This document shows, in pieces, positions 9,607-49,030 of a stretch of DNA of 64,000 nucleotides. Every line of letters begins with the position of its first letter. Positions within the stretch are counted from its first letter, which is position 1. Source of the stretch: Shimia aestuarii (GTDB taxonomy: Bacteria > Pseudomonadota > Alphaproteobacteria > Rhodobacterales > Rhodobacteraceae); assembly GCF_900114635.1 (NCBI RefSeq), contig NZ_FOTQ01000010.1:7501-71500 (forward strand). The letters run 5' to 3'. The notes under the pieces are model-generated. The model made no database searches. It was given only the letters and a program-made list of their open reading frames with translations, and was not told the origin of the DNA. The translations under genes were made by a program, and so were the position numbers.

Positions 9607-10860
9607 ATGCCCGCTCTTTGCCGCGATTGCCTGAGCGCCCTACATCAGGAACGGCGCTGCCCGTCCTGTGGCAGCATGCGCATCGTTCGGCATGACGAAC
9701 TGTTCGACCTGACCATCGCCCATATGGATTGTGACGCCTTTTATGCCAGCGTGGAAAAGCGCGACAACCCGGAATTGGCGGACAAGCCGGTGATCATTGG
9801 CGGTGGCCGGCGTGGAGTCGTATCGACCGCCTGTTACGTGGCACGGATTCGCGGGGTTCGGTCGGCGATGCCGATGTTCCAGGCGCTCAGGCTTTGCCCC
9901 GAGGCGGTGGTAATCCGCCCGCGCATGTCGGTTTATGCCGAAGTCAGCCGCGAAATTCGCAAGATGATGGACGAATTGACCCCGGATATTGAACCGCTGT
10001 CTCTGGACGAAGCCTTCATGGACCTTGGCGGGACGGCCAAGCTGCACGGCGCGCCGCCTGCCGTGATGCTGGCGCGATTGACGAAGCGGATGAAGGACGA
10101 ACTGGGCGTGACCGGCTCGATTGGACTCAGTCACAACAAGTTCCTCGCAAAGGTCGCGTCCGATCTCGACAAGCCGCGTGGCTTTTCAGTGATTGGCAAG
10201 GCGGAAACGGATGCCTTCCTGCGTGACAAGCCGGTGCGGTTGATCTGGGGAATCGGACCTGCGGCACAGGACAGCCTGGAACGGGCCGGAATACGGACGT
10301 TCAACGATCTCTTGCGTTGGGAGCAGGAGGACCTGACGGCGCGGTTCGGGTCGATGGGCTATCGCCTGTGGCATCTCGCGCGTGGGCAGGATCGGCGCAA
10401 GGTGTCGGCACATGCGCCGATCAAGAGCATCAGCAACGAAACCACCTTTTTCGAAGACACCGGGGATGCGGAGATTCTGGATGGGCACCTGTGGCGCATG
10501 GCCGAAAAGGTGTCAGACAGGGCCAAGGCCAAGGACAAGGCCGGGCGGGTGGTCACGCTCAAGCTCAAGCGCGCCAATCACAGCCTGATTTCGCGCCGCC
10601 TGAGTCTACGCGACCCGACCCAGATGGCGGACACGCTTTATCGCACGGCGCGCGGGTTGTTCGATCAGGTGGGCGATCAGGGGCCTTATCGCCTTTTGGG
10701 GGTGGGGCTGGCCGATCTTGTGCCAGCAGACCAGGCGGATCTTTCGGGCGACCTTCTGGATCCGCAGGCGGCACAGCGCGCCCGCGCCGAACGCGCCACG
10801 GACGAGATACGCAAACGCTTCGGGTCGGATGCGATCCTGAAAGGGCGCGCGATGCGTTAG
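9607..10860 (+). CDS. dinB: DinB, Y-family DNA polymerase IV with N-terminal zinc ribbon
   Basis: This 417-residue translesion polymerase shows the catalytic motifs HMDCDAFYASVEKRD (first acidic site) and SLDEAFMDLGG (second). The fingers, thumb and little-finger regions follow in the usual order. It has an extra N-terminus of about 37 residues with CRDC and CPSCGS pairs, which looks like a zinc ribbon. E. coli DinB begins directly at the catalytic motif. ATG 9607 (MPALCRDC) is preferred; an in-frame ATG 63 bases earlier would run through the Nudix leader. A LexA box was not identified. Confidence 0.93.
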   Translation: MPALCRDCLSALHQERRCPSCGSMRIVRHDELFDLTIAHMDCDAFYASVEKRDNPELADKPVIIGGGRRGVVSTACYVARIRGVRSAMPMFQALRLCPEAVVIRPRMSVYAEVSREIRKMMDELTPDIEPLSLDEAFMDLGGTAKLHGAPPAVMLARLTKRMKDELGVTGSIGLSHNKFLAKVASDLDKPRGFSVIGKAETDAFLRDKPVRLIWGIGPAAQDSLERAGIRTFNDLLRWEQEDLTARFGSMGYRLWHLARGQDRRKVSAHAPIKSISNETTFFEDTGDAEILDGHLWRMAEKVSDRAKAKDKAGRVVTLKLKRANHSLISRRLSLRDPTQMADTLYRTARGLFDQVGDQGPYRLLGVGLADLVPADQADLSGDLLDPQAAQRARAERATDEIRKRFGSDAILKGRAMR

Positions 10861-33037: not shown

Positions 33038-34615
33038 TCAATCCGCAAACAGGTGGTCGGTTTTGGCGATCCGTGTCGCGACATCCTCGGAGACAGACAG
33101 GAACGCCATCAGCGCGCTTACCTGATCGGCGGTGTCTTCGCTTTCACGCATCCACCGCACATTCTCGAAACCCGCATCACGAATCCGGTCACTTTCATTC
33201 AGAATGTCGCGCCGGATAGTGGGCAACAAGCGCTCAAGCGTTTCACGCGGCGTCTGATCGCCAGCCAATCCGATACGGGTCGCGTGGCCAGTCAGGTAAT
33301 CGTCGGTGAACTCGCACTGCACCTCGAGCATCCGCGTGACCGAACGGTCATCAAAGAAATCCTGCATCAGGTCCATGTTGGATGGATCGAGACAGATCAC
33401 CAGCCGGTTCGTATCGTAATAGTCGAACAACATCCGCATCAGCGCGCGTCGATGCCGCGTCCGTTTTTCCAAAGTCGCCTGAATCCCACCAAGATCAGGC
33501 AGCGGCGTGCTTTCCTCATTGAAGAGATAGGCAATGGCCGGAATACCGGTTTCCTGCTGAATGCTGGTCAGCATCCGCTTGGCGACGTGCCATTTCTTGC
33601 AGACAAGAATCATCAGTTCCCGATCCCTGCCCAGCGTGGATTCCGTTTCCCAGAAGCGACTGGCAAAACGTTTGCCGACGCGCCCGCGGCTGGTCAGGAA
33701 CTTGAACAGGCTCGGCCCCTCGGCGGAAATCTGGAACTGCGCCCCTTCCTCGGCATATAGCCGCCCCAACCGTTCTTTCAACTCCAGCGCCTCAGGGCTG
33801 ATCTTGCGGGCAAACAGGTAATCCTGGCTCAGAAGCAGGTCGTAATGGTCGTTGTAAAACGTGAGCGGCATCCCGTAGTCGGTGAACATCAGGAATGTGA
33901 GCGTCCGGGTCCGGATGTCCTTGGCTGGCACGAGATGGCGCACGATGGTCTGAAAAAAAGTCTCGTCGGGAATCCATGTAGATCGGAAGAACCGCATGAC
34001 GTCGCGCCGCTGCTGCGTGAAATGCAACACCGCCTCGATTGTCTGGCGCCGCAAGCACCACCACTGGCTGCCGATCATGACCTGTATGTCCGACGGAATC
34101 TCACGCGTCAGACCAAACCGGCGCTGCAGGTTGAACGAGGTATAGAACCGCCATTTCTGCGTTCGCTCGTTGAACCAGTGGCGATAGATCAGCCGCTCGC
34201 CCTTCATCCCGGTCTTGATCCAGTCGCTTTCAAAGAAATCGAAGCTTTCGATGAAGTCCACATCATTGTCGTCGAGGAAATCATGGATGTACTCGGACGA
34301 CTTGATCACCATGCAATCGCCCGACACCATGTAGAAATGCGTGGCGCGGGGAAAGCTGGAGACGGCGGTTTCTACCGCGTAAAGCGTTGCCTGCACCAAT
34401 GACCATTCGCCCCATCCGCATTTGATCCGCTTGTGGGCAAAGGCCACGTTCGGATTGCTGGCCAGCGCGCTCTGGATCATCTGGAAATGCTCGGCCTTGG
34501 CGCTGGCGTCGAAATGGATCGAGATGTAATCGCCCGTCGCTGTCAGGCGTTCGGCCTGTTTGATAATGGCCTCGGGGTCCTTGTGGCACAGCAAGATATA
34601 CGCAATTTGTGCCAT
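33038..34615 (-). CDS. Beta-1,6-N-acetylglucosaminyltransferase-like protein with C-terminal extension
   Basis: This 525-residue protein has an N-terminal Branch/core-2-like glycosyltransferase domain, residues 1-280: IAYILLCHKDPEAI, YISIHFDASAKAEHF, THFYMVSGDCMVIKS and GSQWWCLRRQTIEAVLHF. The C-terminal 240 residues resemble the roseobacter DUF5928-type region, with ELMILVCKKWHVAKRMLT. No signal or membrane segment is seen, so it acts in the cytosol or on the membrane face. It is divergent from a sulfotransferase gene, suggesting joint modification of a surface glycan, which is inference. Confidence 0.82.
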   Translation of the reverse strand: MAQIAYILLCHKDPEAIIKQAERLTATGDYISIHFDASAKAEHFQMIQSALASNPNVAFAHKRIKCGWGEWSLVQATLYAVETAVSSFPRATHFYMVSGDCMVIKSSEYIHDFLDDNDVDFIESFDFFESDWIKTGMKGERLIYRHWFNERTQKWRFYTSFNLQRRFGLTREIPSDIQVMIGSQWWCLRRQTIEAVLHFTQQRRDVMRFFRSTWIPDETFFQTIVRHLVPAKDIRTRTLTFLMFTDYGMPLTFYNDHYDLLLSQDYLFARKISPEALELKERLGRLYAEEGAQFQISAEGPSLFKFLTSRGRVGKRFASRFWETESTLGRDRELMILVCKKWHVAKRMLTSIQQETGIPAIAYLFNEESTPLPDLGGIQATLEKRTRHRRALMRMLFDYYDTNRLVICLDPSNMDLMQDFFDDRSVTRMLEVQCEFTDDYLTGHATRIGLAGDQTPRETLERLLPTIRRDILNESDRIRDAGFENVRWMRESEDTADQVSALMAFLSVSEDVATRIAKTDHLFAD

Positions 34616-35687: not shown

Positions 35688-36842
35688 TTACTGGCGCGAT
35701 ACCAGCTTCCAGCCGCCACCTTCGACAACCGAGATGGTCACTTCGTCCGCACCGCGGTGGTCGCCCGGGCCATAAGTAATCTGCGCATCGGTCAGTTCGT
35801 CAAAGTAATCGAGCGATTCCATGCCTTTGATAAAGGCTTCATGGGTCAGGTCGGGACCAGCCGCCTCAAGCGCGCGTACCAGCGTCTCGGCTGCGGAATA
35901 CCCCAGCATGGCAAAGCCGCTGGCGGGCTGGTCATACTTGGCCTTGTAATCCGCGATGAACTTGCCAGGCACCGCATCTGCAGCACGCGAGTAAAGGTCC
36001 ACCCAACCGGCAGCCGCATAAAGGCCATCGGTCACACCGCCCGGCACCATGGCAACCGGCTCAAGGAAGCCTGCCGAGGTGTTCATGAACTTCACGTCGG
36101 TCCAGCCCAGCTTCTTGGCCGTCCCCACGACGGTGATGCCCTGACGGACACCCAGCGCCATGGTGACAACGTCACAACCTGCCGATTTCAGCTTGGTCAG
36201 CGAGCCGACAAAGTCGAGCTCGTCCGGCTTGTGCGTGGTTTCGCCTGCCATTGTCAGACCAAGCGCGGCGGTCACATCCTTGGTCGAATCGGCGATCTCC
36301 TTGCCGAAATCCGACGGGATATACATGGTGCAGACTTCCTGTGCGCCAAACTCACCTGCAAGGTATTTCACACCGACCTGCACCTGGTCCCAATAGCTCG
36401 AGAACCCGGTGAACTTGTTGTCCATCGGCTCTGCCAGCATCTCACGTGCCGCCGAAAGCGGGCCGACATTCGGAATACCCTTGGGATCCATCAGCTTGAA
36501 GCCCGCAATGTTCATCGGCGTGCCCAGCGACAGGAGCATGGCAAACGCCTTGTCCTTGTTCAGAAGCTTGTTGTAGCCCTGCATCGCGCGCGGGATCTGG
36601 TAGCCGTTATCCTCGACAACGAAGCGAATCTTGCGGCCATGCACACCGCCCGCCGCGTTCACTTCGTCGAATTTCATGTTAGCGCCGTTCACAGCCGGAA
36701 CACCCACCGCGGCAAAGACGCCGCTGAGGTCGTTGACCGAGCCGATCACCACCTCGTCATCGCTCACGCCCTGGGTTTCGGCCAGGCCCTGCGATGCCAG
36801 CGCCACCGCGCCCGCCGCAAATGCGGTCATCAGTTTTTTCAT
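35688..36842 (-). CDS. ABC transporter substrate-binding protein, cluster 2
   Basis: This 384-residue type-I periplasmic binding protein has a signal peptide MKKLMTAFAAGAVALASQGLA and the Liv family core: GVSDDEVVIGSVNDLSGVFA, GRKIRFVVEDNGYQIPRAM, and YSAAETLVRALEAAG near the end. It is the last gene of the minus-strand run starting at 42289 and ends at a bidirectional terminator. The ligand is unknown. An adjacent acyl-CoA synthetase and two acyl-CoA dehydrogenases point to an organic acid rather than an amino acid. Confidence 0.93.
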   Translation of the reverse strand: MKKLMTAFAAGAVALASQGLAETQGVSDDEVVIGSVNDLSGVFAAVGVPAVNGANMKFDEVNAAGGVHGRKIRFVVEDNGYQIPRAMQGYNKLLNKDKAFAMLLSLGTPMNIAGFKLMDPKGIPNVGPLSAAREMLAEPMDNKFTGFSSYWDQVQVGVKYLAGEFGAQEVCTMYIPSDFGKEIADSTKDVTAALGLTMAGETTHKPDELDFVGSLTKLKSAGCDVVTMALGVRQGITVVGTAKKLGWTDVKFMNTSAGFLEPVAMVPGGVTDGLYAAAGWVDLYSRAADAVPGKFIADYKAKYDQPASGFAMLGYSAAETLVRALEAAGPDLTHEAFIKGMESLDYFDELTDAQITYGPGDHRGADEVTISVVEGGGWKLVSRQ

Positions 36843-36889
36843 GTTTTCCTCCCGTTGGTTACGTGGTCTCCAGCCACATGATTTCTAGT

Positions 36890-38770
36890 CTAGTACATTT
36901 CCTCGATCAGTGCGGAATGTTTCTTTTCAACAAAGCCGCGCTTGAGCTTCATGGTCGCGGTAAGCTCCTCATCTTCCGCGGTCAGAAGCACGTTGATCAG
37001 GCGGAAATCCTTGATCTGTTCGACCCGTGCAAAGTCCTTGTTGACCTCCTCCACTTCCTTGCGGATCAGGTCGACAACCTCCTGCGCGGCACAGAGCGAG
37101 GCAAAGTCCGAGAACGGCACCTTGCGGTCCTGCGCGAATTTCTCGACGTTTTCCTGATCGATCATGATCAGACAGGTCAGGTATTTGCGCGCATCGCCGA
37201 TCACCACCGCATCCGAGATATAGTGGCTGAACTTCAACCGGCTCTCGATTTCGGCAGGCGTGATATTCTTGCCCCCAGCCGTGATGATGATGTCTTTCAG
37301 GCGCCCGGTGATCGTCAGGAATCCGTCATCGTCCACCTTGCCCACATCCCCGGTGCGCAGCCAGCCATCGTCGGTAAAAGTTTCGGCCGTCTTTTCATTG
37401 TTGCGCCAATAGCCCTGGAAATTGTTGAGGCCATAGGTCTGAATCTCGCCATCCTCGGCAATCCGCACCTGAAAACCGGGAACCGCCTTGCCCACCGTGC
37501 CAGGCTTGTTGTCATCCGGCAGGTTGATTGTGGCGAGCCCGGTGTTCTCGGTCATGCCATAACCTTCCAGAAGCTGCACGCCAATTGCCCAGTACCACTT
37601 GATCAACTCGGGTGAGATCGGCGCCGCCCCGGTGCCGCCGCGCCGCATCCGGTCCATGCCCAGCATTCGCCGCAAGTTTCGCAGCACGAGGAAGTCCCAG
37701 ATCAGGAAGTTGAGCGCCACCATCGCTGGCACGGGCTTGCGCGCCAGAAGGTAATCGGCCCGTTTCAACCCTGCCTTGACCGCAAGCTTGAAGGCCAGCC
37801 GGCCAATGGGCGTGGCTTCCTGCGCCAACACCAGAACCCGCGAATAGACCTTTTCCCAAACCCGCGGCACCGCCGTGAAGTGGCTGGGCGAGACTTCCTG
37901 CAGGTTGTCGAACACCGTCTCGGGGCTTTCCGCGAAATTCACGATCGCCTTGCCCGCCAGCGGGAAATACACCGACACGTCCCGTTCAAGGATGTGACAG
38001 AGCGGCAGGAAACAAAGCTGTTCATCCCCCGGCATCGTCGGCAGCGCATGTGCGCCCGACACCATCGCGCCAATCACGTTCTCCTGGCTGAGCATCGCGC
38101 CCTTGGGCATACCGGTGGTGCCCGAGGTATAGATCAGAAGCCCGGTGTCGCCCGGTTGCGACTTTTCGATCTCCGCCTCGAAATACCCGTGGTTTTCCGC
38201 GTCAAACGCACGGCCCGTGTCATAGAGATCGTCGATGAACACGCATTTCTCGTGACGCAGATCGTGCAGGCCCTCTTTTTCAAAGATGATAACCTTGACG
38301 ACCTGCGGGGCCTGATCCTCGATCTCCAGAAACTTGTCGAGCTGCTCGTCGTTTTCCACGAACAGGAACCGGCTGTCGCTGTCGCGCAAAAGGTATTCCA
38401 GCTGGCTGGCCGAGTCGGTGGTATAGACCCCCGACGCGATCCCGCCGACCGCCTGAATACCCATGTCGGCGTAAAGCCATTCCTTGCGGTCCTCGGACAG
38501 GATCGACACCACCTCGCCGCGTTCAAGCCCGAGGGCGCGCAGGCCAAGGCCGATCCACTTGGCGTGGTTCCAGTAATCTTTCCACGAATAGGCGCGCCAG
38601 ATGCCAAGGTCTTTCTCGCGGTGCGCGGTCTTGTCCCCCAATTGTTCACACCGCTTGGCAAACAGCTTGGGCACCGTATCGCAACTGTCCACAAGCGCCG
38701 GGCGCTGGCCCGGATTGGCGGTCACGATCACGCCGTTGATCTCGATCTGGTCGGTCGTTTGAATGTTCAT
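36890..38770 (-). CDS. Long-chain acyl-CoA synthetase-type AMP-binding protein, cluster 2
   Basis: This 626-residue ligase has the phosphate loop LLIYTSGTTGMPKGAMLSQ, adenine motif LLEGYGMTENTGLATI and hinge WLRTGDVGKVDDDGFLTITG, with the catalytic Lys region LKRGFVEKKH at the end. It forms an acyl-CoA through an acyl-AMP. I use ATG 38770 (MNIQTTDQIEING) behind GGAGGGGTTGGC. It sits between livF and the binding-protein gene, so activation is coupled to uptake. Confidence 0.94.
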   Translation of the reverse strand: MNIQTTDQIEINGVIVTANPGQRPALVDSCDTVPKLFAKRCEQLGDKTAHREKDLGIWRAYSWKDYWNHAKWIGLGLRALGLERGEVVSILSEDRKEWLYADMGIQAVGGIASGVYTTDSASQLEYLLRDSDSRFLFVENDEQLDKFLEIEDQAPQVVKVIIFEKEGLHDLRHEKCVFIDDLYDTGRAFDAENHGYFEAEIEKSQPGDTGLLIYTSGTTGMPKGAMLSQENVIGAMVSGAHALPTMPGDEQLCFLPLCHILERDVSVYFPLAGKAIVNFAESPETVFDNLQEVSPSHFTAVPRVWEKVYSRVLVLAQEATPIGRLAFKLAVKAGLKRADYLLARKPVPAMVALNFLIWDFLVLRNLRRMLGMDRMRRGGTGAAPISPELIKWYWAIGVQLLEGYGMTENTGLATINLPDDNKPGTVGKAVPGFQVRIAEDGEIQTYGLNNFQGYWRNNEKTAETFTDDGWLRTGDVGKVDDDGFLTITGRLKDIIITAGGKNITPAEIESRLKFSHYISDAVVIGDARKYLTCLIMIDQENVEKFAQDRKVPFSDFASLCAAQEVVDLIRKEVEEVNKDFARVEQIKDFRLINVLLTAEDEELTATMKLKRGFVEKKHSALIEEMY

Positions 38771-38783
38771 GCCAACCCCTCCC

Positions 38784-39557
38784 TCAGCGCCACGTCTTCT
38801 TGCGTTTCCAGCGCCGCTCGCCGCGCGCACCTTCTTCCTGGTGACCCAGGTAGAACGCCTTGATGTCTTCGCTCTCCATCAGCCGATCGGCGCTGCCATC
38901 CATCACGATGCGCCCGATCTCCATCACATAGCCCATATCGGCCAGTTCCAGAGCGACCTTGGCGTTCTGTTCCACCAGCATCATGGTCACGCCTTCATCT
39001 TCGTTAAGACGCTTCAGGATCGCGAAAATCTCCTGCACCAGCAGCGGCGACAGGCCGAGGGACGGCTCGTCCAACAGCATGATCTTGGGCCGCAGCATCA
39101 AACCCCGGCCAATCGCCAGCATCTGCTGTTGCCCCCCAGAAAGCGTACCCGCCTCCTGACCGCGCCGCTCTTTCAGAATGGGAAAATAGTCGAAGACCAT
39201 TTCCCGGTCCTTCTCGATCTCGGCTTTGTCATTGCGGGTATAGGCCCCCAGCGACAGGTTCTCGTCCACGGTCAAAAGCGGAAACACCTCGCGCCCTTCG
39301 GGCACATGCACAATGCCCCGGCGCACGATGGAATGCGGTTCCTTTCCCTGGATTTCCTCTCCCTCGAAAATCACCTGCCCTTTTTCCGGGTCCATGATCC
39401 CCGAGATGGTCTTCAAAAGGGTTGACTTGCCCGCGCCATTGGCACCTAGCACGGTCACGACCTGCCCTTTTTCCACCTTCAGGCTTGCGCCCCGGATCGC
39501 CATGATCGGGCCGTAAAAGCTTTCAAGGTTCTTCACTTCAAGCACGGTTTCACTCAT
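38784..39557 (-). CDS. livF: Branched-chain-type ABC transporter ATPase (LivF), cluster 2
   Basis: This 257-residue ATPase has Walker A GANGAGKST, signature LSGGQQQMLAIGRGLMLRP and Walker B IMLLDEPSLGLSP. The ATG at 39557 shares one base with the livG stop (TGATG). It ends in a basic tail (RGERRWKRKKTWR) like that of LivF in cluster 1, which supports common ancestry of the clusters. Confidence 0.94.
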   Translation of the reverse strand: MSETVLEVKNLESFYGPIMAIRGASLKVEKGQVVTVLGANGAGKSTLLKTISGIMDPEKGQVIFEGEEIQGKEPHSIVRRGIVHVPEGREVFPLLTVDENLSLGAYTRNDKAEIEKDREMVFDYFPILKERRGQEAGTLSGGQQQMLAIGRGLMLRPKIMLLDEPSLGLSPLLVQEIFAILKRLNEDEGVTMMLVEQNAKVALELADMGYVMEIGRIVMDGSADRLMESEDIKAFYLGHQEEGARGERRWKRKKTWR

Positions 39558-40327
39558 CACGCGGCCCCCGCACCAAGATAGGCTTCAATCACGGCCGGAT
39601 CGCTCTGCACCTCTGCAGGCGTTCCCTCGGCCAGCTTCGCGCCATCGGCCAGCGCCAGAACCCTATCGGACACGCCGGACACAAGCCCCATGTCATGTTC
39701 CACCATCAGAACGGTGATCCCCATCTGTTTGCGGATATCGTCGATCCACCAACGCATGTCCTGCGTTTCCTCGACCGACAGACCCGAGGCCGGTTCATCG
39801 AGCAGCAACAGACGCGGCCCGGTGGCCAGCGCCCGGCCCACCTCGACCACCTTGCGCACACCGTAAGGCAGCCCGGCGATCATCTTGTTGCGATAAGGTT
39901 GCAGATCAAGGAAGTCGATGACCTCTTCCACCGCCTCGCGATGGCGCTTTTCCTCGCGCCGCACACGCGGCGTGAACAGCATTTCCTCAAGCATGGTCGT
40001 GCGCCGATGCCGATGCCGTCCAACCAGCAGGTTCTGCAGAACAGTCGCGTGATCGAACAGCTCGATGTTCTGAAAAGTCCGCGCGATGCCCAGATCGGCA
40101 ACCTGATCGGCGTTACGATCCAACAGGTTCTTGCCGTCAAAGGTGATCGACCCGGAATAGGGATCGTAAAACCGCGAGATCAGGTTGAACACGGTGGATT
40201 TCCCCGCCCCGTTCGGCCCGACGATGGCATAGACCTCGCCCTCTTCCACGGTAAAGCTCAGATCGTTGACAGCCACCACGCCCCCGAACTTGAGCGTCGC
40301 ATTCTTGATTTCCAGCAAACTGCTCAT
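39557..40327 (-). CDS. livG: Branched-chain-type ABC transporter ATPase (LivG), cluster 2
   Basis: This 256-residue ATPase has Walker [10 protein letters not shown], family signature LPYGVRKVVEVGRALATGP and Walker B LLLLDEPASGLS, with the LivG C-terminal end (DPAVIEAYLGAGAA). ATG 40327 (MSSLLEIKNATLKF) overlaps the livM stop by four bases (ATGA); longer starts would run far into livM. Confidence 0.94.
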   Translation of the reverse strand: MSSLLEIKNATLKFGGVVAVNDLSFTVEEGEVYAIVGPNGAGKSTVFNLISRFYDPYSGSITFDGKNLLDRNADQVADLGIARTFQNIELFDHATVLQNLLVGRHRHRRTTMLEEMLFTPRVRREEKRHREAVEEVIDFLDLQPYRNKMIAGLPYGVRKVVEVGRALATGPRLLLLDEPASGLSVEETQDMRWWIDDIRKQMGITVLMVEHDMGLVSGVSDRVLALADGAKLAEGTPAEVQSDPAVIEAYLGAGAA

Positions 40328-41409
40328 CTCAGGCGCTCCGTCTTGAGGTAGGATTTCTGGCGCTTGAACATGTCCTTGCGCGCAAACGGGAACAGCTCGA
40401 ACCAAATGCGTATCTTCATCCACCGTCCGTAGATGCCCATCGGCTCGAACAGGATAAACAGGATCAGGATCGCCCCGAACACGCCCGTCTCCAGCCCCGG
40501 AATGGCCACGCCCCCCCCACCAATGGCGTCCTTCGCGATGGACAGGAATTGCGGCAGGTAGGCAACGACCACAGCGCCGAAGAACGCACCGTGGATCGAC
40601 CCAAGACCGCCGATGACGATCATCATCAGCAGGGTGATCGAGATTACGATGGAGAAGGTCTCGTTGTTGAACGCCCCTGCGTAGAACCCCATCAGCGCAC
40701 CCGCAAGCCCGGTGATCCCGCAGGAAATCCCGAACGACGCCGCCTTGGTCCGCGCGATATGCACGCCCATGGCCGTGGCGGATACTTCGCTATCGCGCAC
40801 GGCGGCAAAGGCCCGCCCCAGCGGCGAGCGCAGCAGATTGCGATAGATCAGCGTGCAGATAATCGTGATTGCCAGCACCAGCCAATAAAACCGATCCGGT
40901 GTCGTCCAGCGTTCGATCTCGATGCCGAAGATGGTGATCATCGGGGCAAACTTGCCCGAAACGCCGTCGGTGATCGGCTCCATCAGAACGATCAGGTCAT
41001 CGGTCAGGATCGACAGGGCAATCGTTGCAATCGCAAGGTAGATCCCGTGCAGGCGCACTGCCGGGATGGCAATAATCGTGCCCACGATCCCGGTCAGGAT
41101 ACCCGCCGCCGGAAACGCGATGAGAAACGGCAACCCCTGCTCCATGAAGATCACGCAGGAATAACAGCCCACCGCCAAAAACGCAGCATGACCGAGGCTT
41201 GCCTGCCCGGTCTGCCCGGTCAAAAGCATCAGCCCCAGCCCGGCAATCGCCCAGATCAGAACGTTGGTCACTTCACCCAGATAAAAATCGTCCATGATCC
41301 ACGGCAGCAACACCGCCACCACGATCAGCGTGGCATAGACAAAGAACGTCCACCAATCGGGAAACAGGCGAATGTCGTGTTCGTAAGAGGTCTTGAAATG
41401 TATGCGCAT
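40324..41409 (-). CDS. livM: Branched-chain-type ABC permease (LivM), cluster 2
   Basis: This 361-residue permease has about ten hydrophobic helices, LAGLGLMLLTGQTGQASLGHA-type core (seen as GLMLLTGQTGQASLGHAAFL) and the coupling loop SPLGRAFAAVRDSEVSATAMG. I use ATG 41409 (MRIHFKTSYEHDIRLF), four bases after the livH stop; upstream in-frame codons belong to livH sequence. Confidence 0.93.
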   Translation of the reverse strand: MRIHFKTSYEHDIRLFPDWWTFFVYATLIVVAVLLPWIMDDFYLGEVTNVLIWAIAGLGLMLLTGQTGQASLGHAAFLAVGCYSCVIFMEQGLPFLIAFPAAGILTGIVGTIIAIPAVRLHGIYLAIATIALSILTDDLIVLMEPITDGVSGKFAPMITIFGIEIERWTTPDRFYWLVLAITIICTLIYRNLLRSPLGRAFAAVRDSEVSATAMGVHIARTKAASFGISCGITGLAGALMGFYAGAFNNETFSIVISITLLMMIVIGGLGSIHGAFFGAVVVAYLPQFLSIAKDAIGGGGVAIPGLETGVFGAILILFILFEPMGIYGRWMKIRIWFELFPFARKDMFKRQKSYLKTERLR

Positions 41410-41413
41410 GGGA

Positions 41414-42289
41414 TCAGACCTTCTTCGTGCGGACCTGGCTGAACAGGCCGTGAGGACGGAACACCAAGACAAACAGCAAGAGCGCATAAGGAGCGATCTG
41501 ACTGTAGCCAGCAGCAAGGTAGCGCGATGCAAAGGGTTCGATCACACCCACGATGAGACCACCTGCCAAGGCACCGGGCAACGAGCCAAACCCGCCGATC
41601 ACCGCCGCCGCAAACGCCTTGATCCCGAGAAGGCCTGCGTTTGGATCAATCGCGCCTTTCGAGGCAAAAAGAATGCCGGCCACGGCGGCCACGGCCCCCG
41701 AGAGGCCCCAGATCATGCCCTGCACCCGCTTGACCGGAACCCCCATGAAATACGCCGCCATCTGGTTCTGAGACGCCGCCTGCATGGCAAGGCCGAGCTT
41801 GGTGCGCTGGAAGAACTGGTAGAGGAAGATGGTGAGCAGAACCGTGACGACAATGACCGCCACATCAGCCATACCTAGTACCACACCTCCCAGCCTTATG
41901 TCCCCAAGCGCGAGCGGGCTTTCAAGCGTTTGCGGCTCGTGCCCCCAGATCGCCCCGGCAATAAACCGGATCACAAAACCCAGTGCGATGGTCAGGATCA
42001 CAACCGCCGTCTGGCTCTGTCCAAAAAGATGCCGCAGCACGAAGAAGTCGAGCAGATAACCGAGTACTGCCATGATCGCGATGGCCATTGGTGCCGCCAC
42101 CCAGAAGGGCAGCCCCATGTAATGCGCATTGGTCAGGCCCAACGTGACAAAGGCCCCCAGCATCATGAAATCGCCCTGGGCGAAGTTCACAGCTTCGGTG
42201 GCCTTGTAGATCAGAACGAACCCAAGTGCGATAAGGCCGTAAACACAGCCATTCGCAAGCCCGCTGACGAGCAGTTGCAAAACTTCCAT
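41414..42289 (-). CDS. livH: Branched-chain-type ABC permease (LivH), cluster 2
   Basis: This 291-residue permease begins MEVLQLLVSGLANGCVYGLI and has GFVLIYKATEAVNFAQGDF, the LivH hallmark, plus the coupling loop KLGLAMQAASQNQMAAYFMG. GGAGGATAAA precedes the ATG. It is the first gene of the cluster 2 transporter unit. A CATAC-N6-GTATG palindrome lies 73-88 bases upstream. Confidence 0.94.
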   Translation of the reverse strand: MEVLQLLVSGLANGCVYGLIALGFVLIYKATEAVNFAQGDFMMLGAFVTLGLTNAHYMGLPFWVAAPMAIAIMAVLGYLLDFFVLRHLFGQSQTAVVILTIALGFVIRFIAGAIWGHEPQTLESPLALGDIRLGGVVLGMADVAVIVVTVLLTIFLYQFFQRTKLGLAMQAASQNQMAAYFMGVPVKRVQGMIWGLSGAVAAVAGILFASKGAIDPNAGLLGIKAFAAAVIGGFGSLPGALAGGLIVGVIEPFASRYLAAGYSQIAPYALLLFVLVFRPHGLFSQVRTKKV

Positions 42290-42361
42290 TTATCCTCCCC
42301 GTGCCGGTTGTTCCGGCTTTCCTTGGATTCAGTCTCGTCGCTGGCCCCGCGCCCCGTCAAG

Positions 42362-42377
42362 CATACAGACGGGTATG
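42362..42377. promoter_or_regulatory. Putative TetR operator upstream of livH, cluster 2
   Basis: CATAC-AGACGG-GTATG is an inverted repeat with 5-bp arms and a 6-base centre. It has the same arms and spacing as the palindrome next to the tetR gene at 44785-44802. A TTGACG that could be a -35 box follows it directly on the minus strand (42360-42355). Confidence 0.5.
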
Positions 42378-42412
42378 GTGCCGATCCGCCGTAACGTCAC
42401 ACGTCGCGTTCC

Positions 42413-43528
42413 TTACAGCCCGCGCTGCCGCAAAAGCCAGTTGGTATGGTGCCCCGCATCCCCGAGAAACTCGGTCAGCGCGCGGTCCCGTTTCATGAAA
42501 AGCCCAAGGTCCAACTCGTCGGTCATGCCGATACCGCCATGCATCTGCACACCTTCTTCCGTGGCCTGCCGTCCGGTCGTGGCCGTCTTGGCTTTGGCTG
42601 CACGGCTGAGCGCTTCGGCATTTTCCGCGCCAGCGTCCAAAGCGTTCAGAGCAGCGGAAACCAACGACGCGGTCTGCTCGATCTCGCAATAAAGATCAGC
42701 CGCGCGATGTTGCAAAGCCTGAAACCGCCCGATCAACGTACCGAACTGTTTGCGCGTGCGCAGGTACTCATTGGTTGTCTCTGCCGCAACACGCGCCACG
42801 CCAAGCTGTTCTGCCGCCGTCACCGCACGCCCCGCTGCCAAGGCAGAAGAGAGCGCATTCGCGGCCGCCTCTCCCTCTGCCAAAAGCGCAGAGGCATCCA
42901 GCTGCACATCCTCAAGCATCACACTTGCCGCATTGCGATGGTCCAGCAAGATCTGCGCTGCGACTGTCACGCCATCCTGTGTCGGATCCACCCAGAACAG
43001 GGCGGGCGCCCCATCCAAAAGCGCAACAACGATCAGCCGATCCGCCCCGAACCCATCCACGACAAAGCTCTTGCGACCACCAAGAACAAATCCGTCGCCT
43101 GTCCGGGTCGCGCCTGTCGCAATTCGCTCGGGGCGATGTTTCGCGCCTTCCTCCAAGGCCAGCGCAATCACGGCCTCACCCGCCGCAATCTTTGGCCCCC
43201 ACTGCGCCGCCACAGGTCCGCCGACCTGCCGCAGGATCGTGGCCGACAGGATCGCGGTCGACAGGAACGGCGCCGCGGTCAGGTTGCGCCCCATCGACTC
43301 GGCAATCAGCCCCGCCGCGCGGAAACCAAAATCCGCGCCGCCCATCTCTTCGGGCAAGACGATTCCCATCCAGCCAAGCTCGGCCATGTCCGACAGGATC
43401 GCCGGGTCATAGCCCAGCGGCGCACCGGAATCGCGCAACGCACGAAAGGCGCTGATGGAGTGCGACTGCGCCAGAAACCCGTCTGCCGCTTCGGCCACCA
43501 TCCTGTGATCTTCGCTCAGAATTTCCAT
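42413..43528 (-). CDS. Acyl-CoA dehydrogenase, subunit without visible catalytic-Glu motif
   Basis: This 371-residue flavoprotein has the acyl-CoA dehydrogenase fold order: an N-terminal helical part, a middle beta domain (GVTVAAQILLDHRNA region), and a C-terminal helical part with YLRTRKQFGTLIGRFQALQHR and EEGVQMHGGIGMTDELDLGL. At the end, where family members usually carry a Y-E-G-T-type segment with the catalytic Glu, it reads LTEFLGDAGHHTNWLLRQRG. It starts nine bases after the partner gene. I infer that it is the non-catalytic half of a heteromeric enzyme, as in steroid side-chain dehydrogenases. Confidence 0.88.
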   Translation of the reverse strand: MEILSEDHRMVAEAADGFLAQSHSISAFRALRDSGAPLGYDPAILSDMAELGWMGIVLPEEMGGADFGFRAAGLIAESMGRNLTAAPFLSTAILSATILRQVGGPVAAQWGPKIAAGEAVIALALEEGAKHRPERIATGATRTGDGFVLGGRKSFVVDGFGADRLIVVALLDGAPALFWVDPTQDGVTVAAQILLDHRNAASVMLEDVQLDASALLAEGEAAANALSSALAAGRAVTAAEQLGVARVAAETTNEYLRTRKQFGTLIGRFQALQHRAADLYCEIEQTASLVSAALNALDAGAENAEALSRAAKAKTATTGRQATEEGVQMHGGIGMTDELDLGLFMKRDRALTEFLGDAGHHTNWLLRQRGL

Positions 43529-43537
43529 CTCTTCCCC

Positions 43538-44719
43538 TCAGCCCGGCAGTTTCAGAACAGCCTTGGCCAGAATGCCAAGCATGACTTCCGAGGTGCCACC
43601 CTCGATGCTGTTGGCCTTGGAGCGCAACCAATCGCGCGCCGCCTGCCCGGCATCGTTGGACGTCCCTTCCCAGACAAGGTCATCCGACCCGCCCGCAGCC
43701 ACCCGAAGACTCTGGCGCCGCTTGTTCAACTCTGTGCCAAGATATTTGAGCTCGGCCGAGCGCGCGCCAAGCTCCTCGCCCTTGCGCATCATGTCCCGCG
43801 CCATGCCCATATGCGCATCAAACGCCATCTCATCGACAAGGAACCGACCCAGATCGGCGCGCAGCATCGGATCGTCCAGCCGACCGCTCTCGTCCAAGCC
43901 AATACAGGTAACCGCATCGCTCAGCAGATCCGACTTGGCAAAAAGCGCCACGTCCGATCCGCCAATCATCTCGCGCTCGTGGGTCAGGAGGTATTTGGCA
44001 ATGGTCCAGCCCTGCCCGCGCTCTCCGACGATCTGATCCTTTGGCACTTTCACAGCATCAAAGAAGGTCTCGCAAAATGGCGATGCTCCGGAGATCAGCT
44101 TGATGGGCTTTGTGCTGACTCCTTCGCTTTCCATGTCGAATAGAAGGAAGGAAATACCGGTGTGCTTGCTTTCGTCCGGCTCTGTCCGCACAAGACAGAA
44201 TATCCAGTCCGCCTTGTCCGCATAGGACGTCCAGATCTTCTGACCTGTCACCTCAAAATAGTCGCCCTTGTCCACGCCCTTGGTCTGCAATGAAGCAAGG
44301 TCCGACCCAGCCCCCGGCTCTGAATAGCCCTGGCACCAGCGGATTTCACCACGCGCAATCTGCGGCAGGTAATGGCGTTTCTGGTCCTCGCTGCCAAAGG
44401 CCAAAAGCGCCGGCCCCAGCATCCAGATGCCAAAGCTCTGAAGCGGGGGGCGTGCATTGATGCGGCGCATTTCCTCGGCCAGCACCTTTTGCTCCGGCCC
44501 TGAAAGTCCGCCGCCACCATATGCCTTCGGCCATGCCGGCACGGTCCATCCGCGCTCTGCCATAACCTGCATCCATTGTTTTTGCGCCGGTGAGCGGTAC
44601 GTGAAGTTGCGCCCTCCCCAGCAAATGTCGTCTTCGCCCATTGGCTGACGCATCTCGACCGGGCAGTTCGCCTCCAGCCAGTCCCGCGTCTCTTCCCGGA
44701 ACGCTTCCAGGTTCGACAT
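43538..44719 (-). CDS. Acyl-CoA dehydrogenase, subunit with catalytic-Glu motif
   Basis: This 393-residue acyl-CoA dehydrogenase has RWCQGYSEPGAGSDLASLQT (flavin/substrate contact), KIWTSYADKADWIFCLVRT and the C-terminal NSIEGGTSEVMLGILAKAV, where E in EGGTSE corresponds to the usual catalytic base region. ATG 44719 (MSNLEAFREETRDWLE) follows GGGAGGATCAG. The next gene is a second, shorter dehydrogenase nine bases away. The unit is transcribed from the promoter carrying the TetR-type palindrome at 44785-44802. Confidence 0.92.
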   Translation of the reverse strand: MSNLEAFREETRDWLEANCPVEMRQPMGEDDICWGGRNFTYRSPAQKQWMQVMAERGWTVPAWPKAYGGGGLSGPEQKVLAEEMRRINARPPLQSFGIWMLGPALLAFGSEDQKRHYLPQIARGEIRWCQGYSEPGAGSDLASLQTKGVDKGDYFEVTGQKIWTSYADKADWIFCLVRTEPDESKHTGISFLLFDMESEGVSTKPIKLISGASPFCETFFDAVKVPKDQIVGERGQGWTIAKYLLTHEREMIGGSDVALFAKSDLLSDAVTCIGLDESGRLDDPMLRADLGRFLVDEMAFDAHMGMARDMMRKGEELGARSAELKYLGTELNKRRQSLRVAAGGSDDLVWEGTSNDAGQAARDWLRSKANSIEGGTSEVMLGILAKAVLKLPG

Positions 44720-44784
44720 GATCTGATCCTCCCTGCACCCCGGCTTTCTCTTCCGGAAAACGAGGCATTGCAGGATCAAGCAAG

Positions 44785-44802
44785 ACATACTACTCAGTAT
44801 GT
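44785..44802. promoter_or_regulatory. Putative TetR operator between tetR and dehydrogenase genes
   Basis: ACATAC-TACTCA-GTATGT is a perfect palindrome with 6-bp arms. On the minus strand TTGACA (44808-44803) lies immediately upstream, so the palindrome fills the -35/-10 spacer of the dehydrogenase promoter, a classic repressor position. It is also about 75 bases upstream of the tetR ATG. Confidence 0.65.
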
Positions 44803-44877
44803 TGTCAATTGAACGCTCCGCGATTGACGCGGCGTCAGAACCTGCTATCTCCGCGCGCGGTGACGACTGGAGCAGAC

Positions 44878-45498
44878 ATGAAAGACCAGATGGCCCCTGT
44901 AATGAGCGCTTCGAAGTCCGAAATTCTGGACGCGGCGGCGGTTGTTTTCATGGATCTGGGCGTGGATGTCGCGTCGATCGACGACATCGCACGCCACCTC
45001 GGGTCGACCAAGGGCCGGATCTATCACCACTTCGCATCCAAGGGCGTTCTGCTGTCCGAAGTCTGCCTGCGCGCCGCCGATTTCACCTATCGGAAAGTCG
45101 CCCTGGTGATCGACCCGGACGCCGCCCCCGACAAAAACCTGCGCAACATGATCCTGGCGCATGTGCCCGAAGTGTTGCGCACCCTGCCCTATCACAAGGT
45201 CATTCGACAGACCTACCCGGGCATCAATCAGAAATCGACCACGCAGGTCGAACGCGACCTGCACCAGCGCATCCACGCCGAACGTGATCGTTATGAAGGC
45301 CTGTTCCGCGCAGAACTGCGCCGCGGCATGACCGATGGCATTTTCCGTCAGCAAAACGAAACCATCGCCCTTCACGGCATGCTGCTTTTGGTGAACGCGC
45401 CCGTGATCTGGTACACGCCCCGCGCTGACGAGCCCGAAGGCTTTGCGCTGGAAATCGCCCGTCAGACCGCCGACATGGCGGTGCGCGCCCTTTCCTGA
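44878..45498 (+). CDS. TetR-family transcriptional regulator
   Basis: This 206-residue repressor has an N-terminal helix-turn-helix: KSEILDAAAVVFMDLGVDVA, SIDDIARHLGSTKGRIYHHF and ASKGVLLSEVC. The C-terminal ligand domain includes HKVIRQTYPGINQKSTTQVE. ATG 44878 follows GGAGCAGAC; an in-frame ATG 69 bases upstream would run into the operator region. It is divergent from the acyl-CoA dehydrogenase genes. An acyl-CoA made by the pathway is a plausible inducer, by analogy with FadR/PaaR/KstR-type TetR proteins. Confidence 0.92.
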   Translation: MKDQMAPVMSASKSEILDAAAVVFMDLGVDVASIDDIARHLGSTKGRIYHHFASKGVLLSEVCLRAADFTYRKVALVIDPDAAPDKNLRNMILAHVPEVLRTLPYHKVIRQTYPGINQKSTTQVERDLHQRIHAERDRYEGLFRAELRRGMTDGIFRQQNETIALHGMLLLVNAPVIWYTPRADEPEGFALEIARQTADMAVRALS

Positions 45499-48241: not shown

Positions 48242-49030
48242 TCAGCCGGATTTGCCGCGCGGGGTATCCTTGAGGAGCTTCTCGATGTCGTTGAGACGCG
48301 CCAGAACCTCATCCCGGTAGTCATCCGTGCGCTGGTCGGCCTCGACATGATGCGCATCCTGCATCGAGTTCACCACCAGACCCACAACAAGGTTCAGCAC
48401 GATAAAGGTCGTCAGCAGGATGAAGGGCACAAAGAACAGCCACGCATAGGTATAGGTTGCCATCACAGGACGCACGATCCCCATCGACCAACTCTCCAGC
48501 GTCATGATCTGGAACAGGGAATAGGCCGACCGCCCCAGCGTTCCGAACCAATCAGGAAAGGCCGCCCCAAACAGTTTCGTCGCCATGACCGCGCCGATGT
48601 AAAAGATGAGCGTCATCAAGAGAAAGACCGACCCCATCCCCGGCAACGCATTGATTAGCCCCTCGATCACACGGCGCAGCGACGGTGCCACTGACACCAC
48701 CCGCAAAAGCCGCAGGATGCGCAGCGCCCGCAAAACCGCAAGACCCTGCGCCGCCGGAACAAGCGCGATGCCGACAATCACGAAATCAAACAGGTTCCAC
48801 CCGTTTCGGAAAAACTGTGCCCGCTGCACGAATAGCTTGGCCAATATCTCGACCACAAAAATCGCAAGACACACACCATCCAGCGTCACCAGCAACGGTC
48901 CGGCCACCTCTATCGCCGTCTGCGAGGTCTCCAGCCCGAGAATGATCGCATTGAACAGGATCACACCCAGAATGGTATTGCGAAACGCCTGCGTGTCGAT
49001 GAATGCGCCAATACGGTCTCGGAGCGTCAT
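48242..49030 (-). CDS. Bacterial voltage-gated sodium channel (NaChBac/NavSp type)
   Basis: This 262-residue six-helix channel subunit forms a homotetramer. The S4 voltage sensor carries R101, R104, R107 and R110 (LRALRILRLLRVVSVAPSLR), and the pore filter TLESWSM at residues 177-183 matches the Na+-selective TLESW signature of BacNav channels. S6 (FVPFILLTTFIVLNLVVGLV) leads to a charged C-terminal coiled coil (YRDEVLARLNDIEKLL) that assembles the tetramer. NavSp and NavRosD from roseobacters are the closest family. It lies alone, with its own terminator 150 bases downstream. Confidence 0.93.
   Translation of the reverse strand: MTLRDRIGAFIDTQAFRNTILGVILFNAIILGLETSQTAIEVAGPLLVTLDGVCLAIFVVEILAKLFVQRAQFFRNGWNLFDFVIVGIALVPAAQGLAVLRALRILRLLRVVSVAPSLRRVIEGLINALPGMGSVFLLMTLIFYIGAVMATKLFGAAFPDWFGTLGRSAYSLFQIMTLESWSMGIVRPVMATYTYAWLFFVPFILLTTFIVLNLVVGLVVNSMQDAHHVEADQRTDDYRDEVLARLNDIEKLLKDTPRGKSG

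Follow-up and report, generated by a model that had tools for sequence, protein, structure and literature searches.

In R. palustris, the ABC transporter cluster RPA3723-RPA3725 adjoins the pimFABCDE genes, and binding proteins of the branched-chain class (COG0683) were reported to bind aromatic, fatty or dicarboxylic acids instead (PMC3223731). Predicted ABC transporters are important for fatty or dicarboxylic acids in beta-proteobacteria, as are PimCD homologues and a TetR repressor (PMC12543098), and the TetR protein FadP is listed as unique to this group among the taxa covered (PMC5343134). Dehydrogenases of the alpha2beta2 type hold their catalytic Glu in the alpha subunit (PMC11153573), while ACAD10/11 and LvaA/LvaC act on 4-hydroxyacyl-CoAs (PMC12440821). 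The locus analysed here lies in a 64,000-nucleotide stretch of the Shimia aestuarii genome (contig NZ_FOTQ01000010.1, positions 7,501 to 71,500; the whole stretch is called the window), where genes for a Liv-type ABC importer, an acyl-CoA synthetase (fadD) and two acyl-CoA dehydrogenases (PimC and PimD) stand beside a tetR gene. Judged by its conservation, a palindrome between pimC and tetR (site 1) is very probably the operator of this TetR, and it appears likely that the protein is a local repressor controlling a small catabolic module for a fatty-acid-like acid.

A genome collection covering 84,980 species, one genome per species, was scanned with the TetR protein and yielded 71 loci; as these were chosen through six short peptide patterns, distant TetRs were missed. 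An operator-type site is present in all 71. When one mismatch is allowed, 63 of them have such a site, exact in 49 and changed at a single position in 14, within 700 bp upstream of tetR, as against 62 of 1420 random 731-bp stretches from the same loci, a control that includes the true operators; L107, which gave no full TetR match, was placed at an assumed start for this count and left out of the tree as short. The remaining eight loci carry exact sites at greater distance: in six (L057, L062, L069, L071, L072 and L073) between a divergent ACAD11-like gene and the gene run that ends in tetR, and in two (L104 and L105) elsewhere in the locus. The core of the 63 sites reads CAKACY-N4-RGTATG, with CATACY in 49. 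On the pimC side, the operator directly follows TTGACA in all 14 window-type loci, so that a bound dimer would cover the presumed pimC promoter. By conservation, then, a palindromic operator stands upstream of the regulator's own gene, and the motif search in relatives that the earlier note had proposed as a check came out in favour of site 1, with a refined motif conserved beside tetR.

Simple counts of the motif, on the other hand, are close to chance. With up to two mismatches, CATAC-N6-GTATG occurs 11 times in the window (11.75 expected); the 4.23-Mb genome holds six exact matches, and 40 at up to one mismatch versus 25 for a reversed control. Counting matches alone was therefore rejected as uninformative, and the case rests on comparison with relatives. 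A scoring matrix built from the sites near relatives' tetR genes gives 25.3 bits for site 1, 14.8 bits for a second palindrome before livH (site 2) and 8.8 bits for the third-best place in the window. As far as conservation can tell, the comparative data lift site 1 far above chance and leave site 2 unsettled. The genome's additional exact sites (in a PaaX/carboxylase cluster on C7, and on C18) were set aside: with scores of 7.1 to 15.1 bits they deviate from the core of the operator, and no link to this TetR was seen.

Several other motif occurrences were recorded. Two exact CATACN6GTATG sites lie in the C7 cluster (L005 9346-15558), which encodes a PaaX-type regulator, a carboxyl transferase, a biotin carboxylase and BKACE. 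Locus L070 has a second strong operator-like site (10658-10673; 21.7 bits) downstream of tetR and ahead of the next gene. Genome G090, from another family, carries 40 copies of CATACY-N4-RGTATG, most of the listed places reading CATACCGCCAGGTATG; many of these places are within 100 bases of a contig start, and the repeats are perhaps part of a mobile element. Between operator and tetR, the window also has a TGACGC-type inverted repeat (44824-44838), with a similar stretch in the tetR-less genome G012.

Within the genus, 25 congeneric (Shimia) genomes were compared. TetR1, the window type, occurs in 15 of them (61-72% identical to the window's TetR) and TetR2 in seven (31-36% identical), never together in one genome; in the TetR tree they fall into different well-supported clades, joined by long branches that leave the deep joins unsure. 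CATACY-N4-RGTATG adjoins tetR in all 22 genomes with TetR1 or TetR2, is present in exactly one copy in all 15 TetR1 genomes, and occurs in none of the three (G012, G014 and G016) without a TetR relative of at least 70 bits. Comparison across genomes shows this joint absence of tetR and operator. G012 serves as a natural experiment: it retains the TTGACA box and the genes pimCD, livHMGF and fadD together with that for the binding protein (82-94% identical, except PimD with 68%), and has neither tetR nor operator; G016 has liv, fadD and the binding gene, with PimCD, tetR and operator all missing. Outside the genus, eight genomes encode a TetR relative scoring at least 70 bits, and seven of these carry the motif, versus 18 of 114 other genomes; in six of the seven it lies within 7 kb of tetR, in G062 it is on another contig, and G121 has none.

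The regulator reaches 45.6 bits against the TetR_N helix-turn-helix model (cut-off 24) and 30.9 of the 200 bits required by the NCBIfam FadR (Bacillus) equivalog. Among the solved chains closest to it are DarR, KstR2 and a protein described as a regulator of fatty acid metabolism. TKGR(I/V)YH in the recognition region is common to 10 of 10 aligned TetRs of different clades. Identity with FadP by name was considered, and the stated taxonomic range of FadP (beta-proteobacteria) speaks against it.

The features of the cluster are collected in Table 1; all genes are on the minus strand except the divergent tetR. They were found where the earlier note had placed them and with the identities it had given, and its two palindromes are both exact CATAC-N6-GTATG, the interval 44785-44802 that it gave for the first being site 1 plus a matching A/T flank.

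Table 1. Genes and candidate regulatory sites of the cluster (window coordinates; a point marks features without a strand).
Feature	Position	Strand	Remarks
Substrate-binding protein, Liv/HAAT-type ABC transporter	35688..36842	-	Nearest solved relative 4n03 (title: fatty acid transporter binding protein)
AMP-forming acyl-CoA synthetase, FadD11-like	36890..38830	-	AMP-binding; best NCBIfam FadD11, 390 bits vs cut-off 950
LivF-type ATPase	38784..39560	-	Family models
LivG-type ATPase	39557..40423	-	Family models; start probably 40327
LivM-type permease	40324..41532	-	Family models; start probably 41409
LivH-type permease	41414..42289	-	Family models
Site 2, CATACAGACGGGTATG	42362..42377	.	Exact palindrome just upstream of presumed livH -35 box; candidate operator
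PimD-like acyl-CoA dehydrogenase, beta-type subunit	42413..43528	-	Aligned catalytic position without Glu
PimC-like acyl-CoA dehydrogenase, alpha-type subunit	43538..44719	-	Carries Glu248
Site 1, CATACTACTCAGTATG	44786..44801	.	Presumed TetR operator directly behind TTGACA, presumed pimC -35 box
TetR-family regulator, 206 aa	44878..45498	+	Longest open reading frame from 44809, likely start ATG 44878; TetR_N + TetR_C_24

Elsewhere in the window, one protein (33038-34615) joins a Core-2/I-branching glycosyltransferase domain to DUF5928, and another (48242-49030; 262 aa) is an Ion_trans family channel protein.

Gene content was then compared across the 71 TetR loci, with presence set at 50% identity (40% for kinase, MaoC and SDR1) and gene maps drawn from a fixed probe set. 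The liv genes, fadD and the binding protein gene occur together in 60 loci, across Rhodobacterales and Hyphomicrobiales, among which 28 have an ACAD11-like dehydrogenase plus an APH-type kinase, 13 have PimC and 19 have none of ACAD11, kinase and PimC. Four further loci have PimC, ACAD11 and kinase but no liv, four others ACAD11 and kinase only, and one is cut by a contig end after ACAD11 and LivH; two hold none of these genes, though in one of the two, L104, a different Liv-type ABC operon (31-38% identical) accompanies tetR. Transporter and ligase are thus the steady partners and the enzyme varies, being the PimC/PimD pair in the window and an ACAD11-like dehydrogenase with an LvaA-like kinase elsewhere. 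The seven TetR2 loci have the gene order tetR, ADH, liv, fadD, binding protein, pimC, pimD (in L183, pimD lies beyond the end of the examined DNA). Comparison shows the gene content, and the gene set for uptake, CoA activation and dehydrogenation that the earlier note had recognised, well beyond this genome, the TetR gene being divergent and its operator well conserved. The co-occurrence on which that note had staked its proposal was found in part: TetR, transporter and operator strongly co-occur, and PimC adjoins the cluster of the binding gene in 23 of 23 genomes of the genus that have PimC, a linkage that fails outside the genus (below). Of the nine genomes there that have the binding protein, five also encode a TetR relative scoring at least 70 bits, in three on the same contig.

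The best matches of the two dehydrogenases are two chains of one complex, 6wy8: PimC matches Tcur3483 (177 bits) and PimD matches Tcur3481 (100 bits, a narrow match, the next other ACAD reaching 97 bits). Two adjacent genes thus match two chains of one complex of the ChsE4-ChsE5 type. Moreover, at the HER motif of 4x28_A the alignment places Glu248 in PimC and AAGR in PimD; by alignment, the Glu is found in alpha only, and we take Glu248 to be the catalytic Glu known from alpha2beta2 enzymes. PimC and PimD probably form an alpha2beta2 acyl-CoA dehydrogenase. A dehydrogenase of this type, with Tcur3483 and 4x28_A (both of steroid side-chain type) as PimC's nearest solved relatives, would also suit a system that takes up bulky or branched acids, for instance isoprenoid acids or steroid side chains. 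We consider this improbable, as no ring-degradation gene is among the cluster genes identified (the relatives' flanks being covered by the fixed probe set) and similar pairs also serve straight diacids (PMC12543098).

The resemblance of PimC and PimD also raises the possibility that medium-chain dicarboxylic acids are imported and oxidised, on the pattern of the R. palustris pim system, where the ABC cluster beside pimFABCDE has fatty- and dicarboxylic-acid binding proteins (PMC3223731); in one beta-proteobacterium, which has a TetR repressor of a beta-oxidation operon too, PimCD homologues matter for C8, C9, C10 and C12 diacids (PMC12543098). However, the two proteins score only 253 of 624 and 175 of 653 bits against the pimeloyl-CoA dehydrogenase equivalogs TIGR03204 and TIGR03203, and with scores so far below the cut-offs that identity by name was rejected. 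The cluster is also without a hydratase or thiolase gene, its ligase is FadD11-like, and many relatives without PimCD have ACAD11 and the kinase. Diacids are therefore, in our estimate, a rather unlikely substrate of this locus.

Two permeases, two ATPases and one binding protein complete a transporter of the Liv/HAAT type, and since all five parts belong to Liv families, an ordinary branched-chain amino acid importer might merely lie beside two dehydrogenases and a TetR. None of the five reaches its E. coli-type branched-chain cut-off, though (LivH 104 of 379, LivM 117 of 366, LivG 268 of 362, LivF 244 of 441 and the binding protein 57 of 477 bits), LivH and the binding protein falling far below. 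Furthermore, the ligase gene accompanies the transporter in the 60 loci counted above, and the best sequence match of the binding protein, 4n03, is titled fatty acid ABC transporter binding protein. Even with the valine-bound fold match described below, such a chance neighbourhood is hard to credit, and the substrate is probably fatty-acid-like.

The reach of TetR to the transporter genes is less clear. Site 2 is the second-best site in 64 kb, 6 bits above the third, and stands directly before the presumed livH -35 box. At its position, however, it was found in 0 of 13 relatives with the same pimD-livH gap (the closest, L038, scores -7.5 bits), and as a conserved livH operator it was rejected. 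In 7 of the 13, a palindrome that deviates at one position at most stands elsewhere in the gap, and in L046 (11.6 bits) and L048 (10.9 bits) it is exact, so that some factor may bind in this region. Apart from the tetR-upstream sites already counted, 1.41 Mb of relatives' loci hold only 11 places that reach the score of site 2, 10 of which sit in loci whose tetR has no adjacent site. These findings would fit a genuine second operator in this gap, in the form of site 2 in the window and of a TACGN4CGTA-type palindrome in other Shimia, through which TetR controls both units directly. Yet the gap palindromes of relatives range from -4.3 to 11.6 bits and all deviate from the Y...R core, and another site elsewhere in the genome scores 15.1 bits and has no known link to this TetR. 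The tetR-less G012 even keeps the gap palindrome of L049 letter for letter with site 1 gone, which makes the TACGN4CGTA type a weak candidate for a TetR site. Direct control of both units is accordingly somewhat doubtful, and site 2 is an unproven candidate operator rather than the shared operator of the earlier note, a claim to which the livH element described below also runs counter. TetR control of the transporter hence hinges on read-through from pimCD or on this unproven site.

For the local repressor favoured here, we infer repression, promoters, ligand and substrate class as follows. Without inducer, a TetR dimer would occupy site 1, inside the pimC promoter and near its own, and pimCD and tetR would be blocked; a CoA ester of the substrate would probably release it. 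The binding protein and LivHMGF would import a fatty-acid-like acid, the FadD-type ligase would form its CoA thioester, and the PimC/PimD pair would make the first 2-enoyl-CoA, with general beta-oxidation completing the breakdown. The transporter genes would use their own conserved promoter element, with TetR acting on them through pimCD read-through or, if functional, site 2.

Several observations weigh against this model. No cluster protein reached a curated NCBIfam cut-off among the matches listed. The binding protein has a valine-bound protein as its second fold match, level with the first. Outside the genus, relatives of the binding protein and of PimC occur together in six genomes (under the E-value limits applied), and in every one they are on different contigs. 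Finally, a TGACGTWACGG element (in the window, within the gap 42289-42412) precedes livH in 16 of 16 gaps, including those of the tetR-less G012 and G016, with one variant (TGATGT in L049); it lies ~38 bp upstream of CTTGACG before livH, and its conservation also in tetR-less genomes suggests that the transporter may answer to other control.

Operator-like sites were also found at unlinked genes of TetR2 genomes. In 6 of 7, such sites (12.2-18.6 bits) lie 1.7-1.8 kb before a kinase gene, upstream of its operon, whereas none of 17 testable other genomes reaches 12 bits there (best 9.9; Fisher 5e-5, uncorrected, after a search and among related genomes). Among these sites, those of G006 and G021 have one imperfect half; G023 has none before the kinase operon, and in G020 the DNA upstream of APH is too short. 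Similarly, a site 52-55 bp upstream of the ACAD11 gene was found in 3 of 6 TetR2 genomes versus 0 of 17 others (G020 and G021 yielded no ACAD11 gene, and that of G001 is a distant homologue, ~50%), and one upstream of an SDR gene in 4 of 7 versus 0 of 18. The ACAD11-like protein matches solved ACAD11 (E 4e-118) second to the acyl-CoA dehydrogenase 4hr3 (3e-121), and shares the ADGPD stretch with ACAD11. As such enzymes handle 4-hydroxyacyl-CoAs, these sites provide a lead, indirect for the window, that the substrate is perhaps 4-hydroxylated. The kinase and the ACAD11-like gene are absent from the window's cluster, though both occur in 36 of 71 TetR loci, and the window's genome has no operator-like site at its kinase, ACAD11-like and SDR genes. 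It is tentatively conceivable, if on the whole unlikely, that the module belongs to a roseobacter/Hyphomicrobiales TetR regulon for Liv-type import of 4-hydroxy (or 4-oxo, gamma-lactone derived) fatty acids, with a clustered ligase, an LvaA-like kinase, an ACAD11-like dehydrogenase and PimCD for other rounds, shrunk to a single local operator in the window's lineage. Were the lead true, it would represent a bacterial uptake route for acids handled by ACAD10/11 in mammals.

No published report of this TetR, operator or cluster was found among the matches listed, with most subscription literature outside the search. The label 'unreported' in the earlier note was nevertheless overstated, given the R. 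palustris ABC cluster with fatty/dicarboxylic binding proteins beside pimFABCDE (PMC3223731). What began as a guess from one window is now an operator and regulon that are defined and testable, and fatty-acid-like substrates in marine bacteria are linked to an ABC importer family whose usual annotation is branched-chain amino acid transport.

With the R. palustris system, the locus has in common an ABC cluster, a CoA ligase and PimC/PimD dehydrogenases, the binding proteins there being for fatty/dicarboxylic acids (PMC3223731); unlike R. palustris with its complete beta-oxidation operon, the cluster here has only the ligase and the first dehydrogenase; the ligase is FadD11-like and its gene adjoins livF, while the TetR gene is divergent and has a defined operator. 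Like FadP and PsrA, TetR proteins that control fatty acid degradation genes (PMC5343134), the regulator would act on such genes, yet the window type has one operator per genome, linked to an ABC importer. The lva operon and the ACAD10/ACAD11 4-hydroxy acid route (PMC12440821) have a parallel in relatives, where genes for an ACAD11-like dehydrogenase and an LvaA-like kinase lie beside this operator or under it, whereas in the window's genome neither enzyme is in the cluster and their genes lack an operator-like site. The kind of system is thus already known, and the present locus appears to be a variant of it with one operator well supported by conservation.

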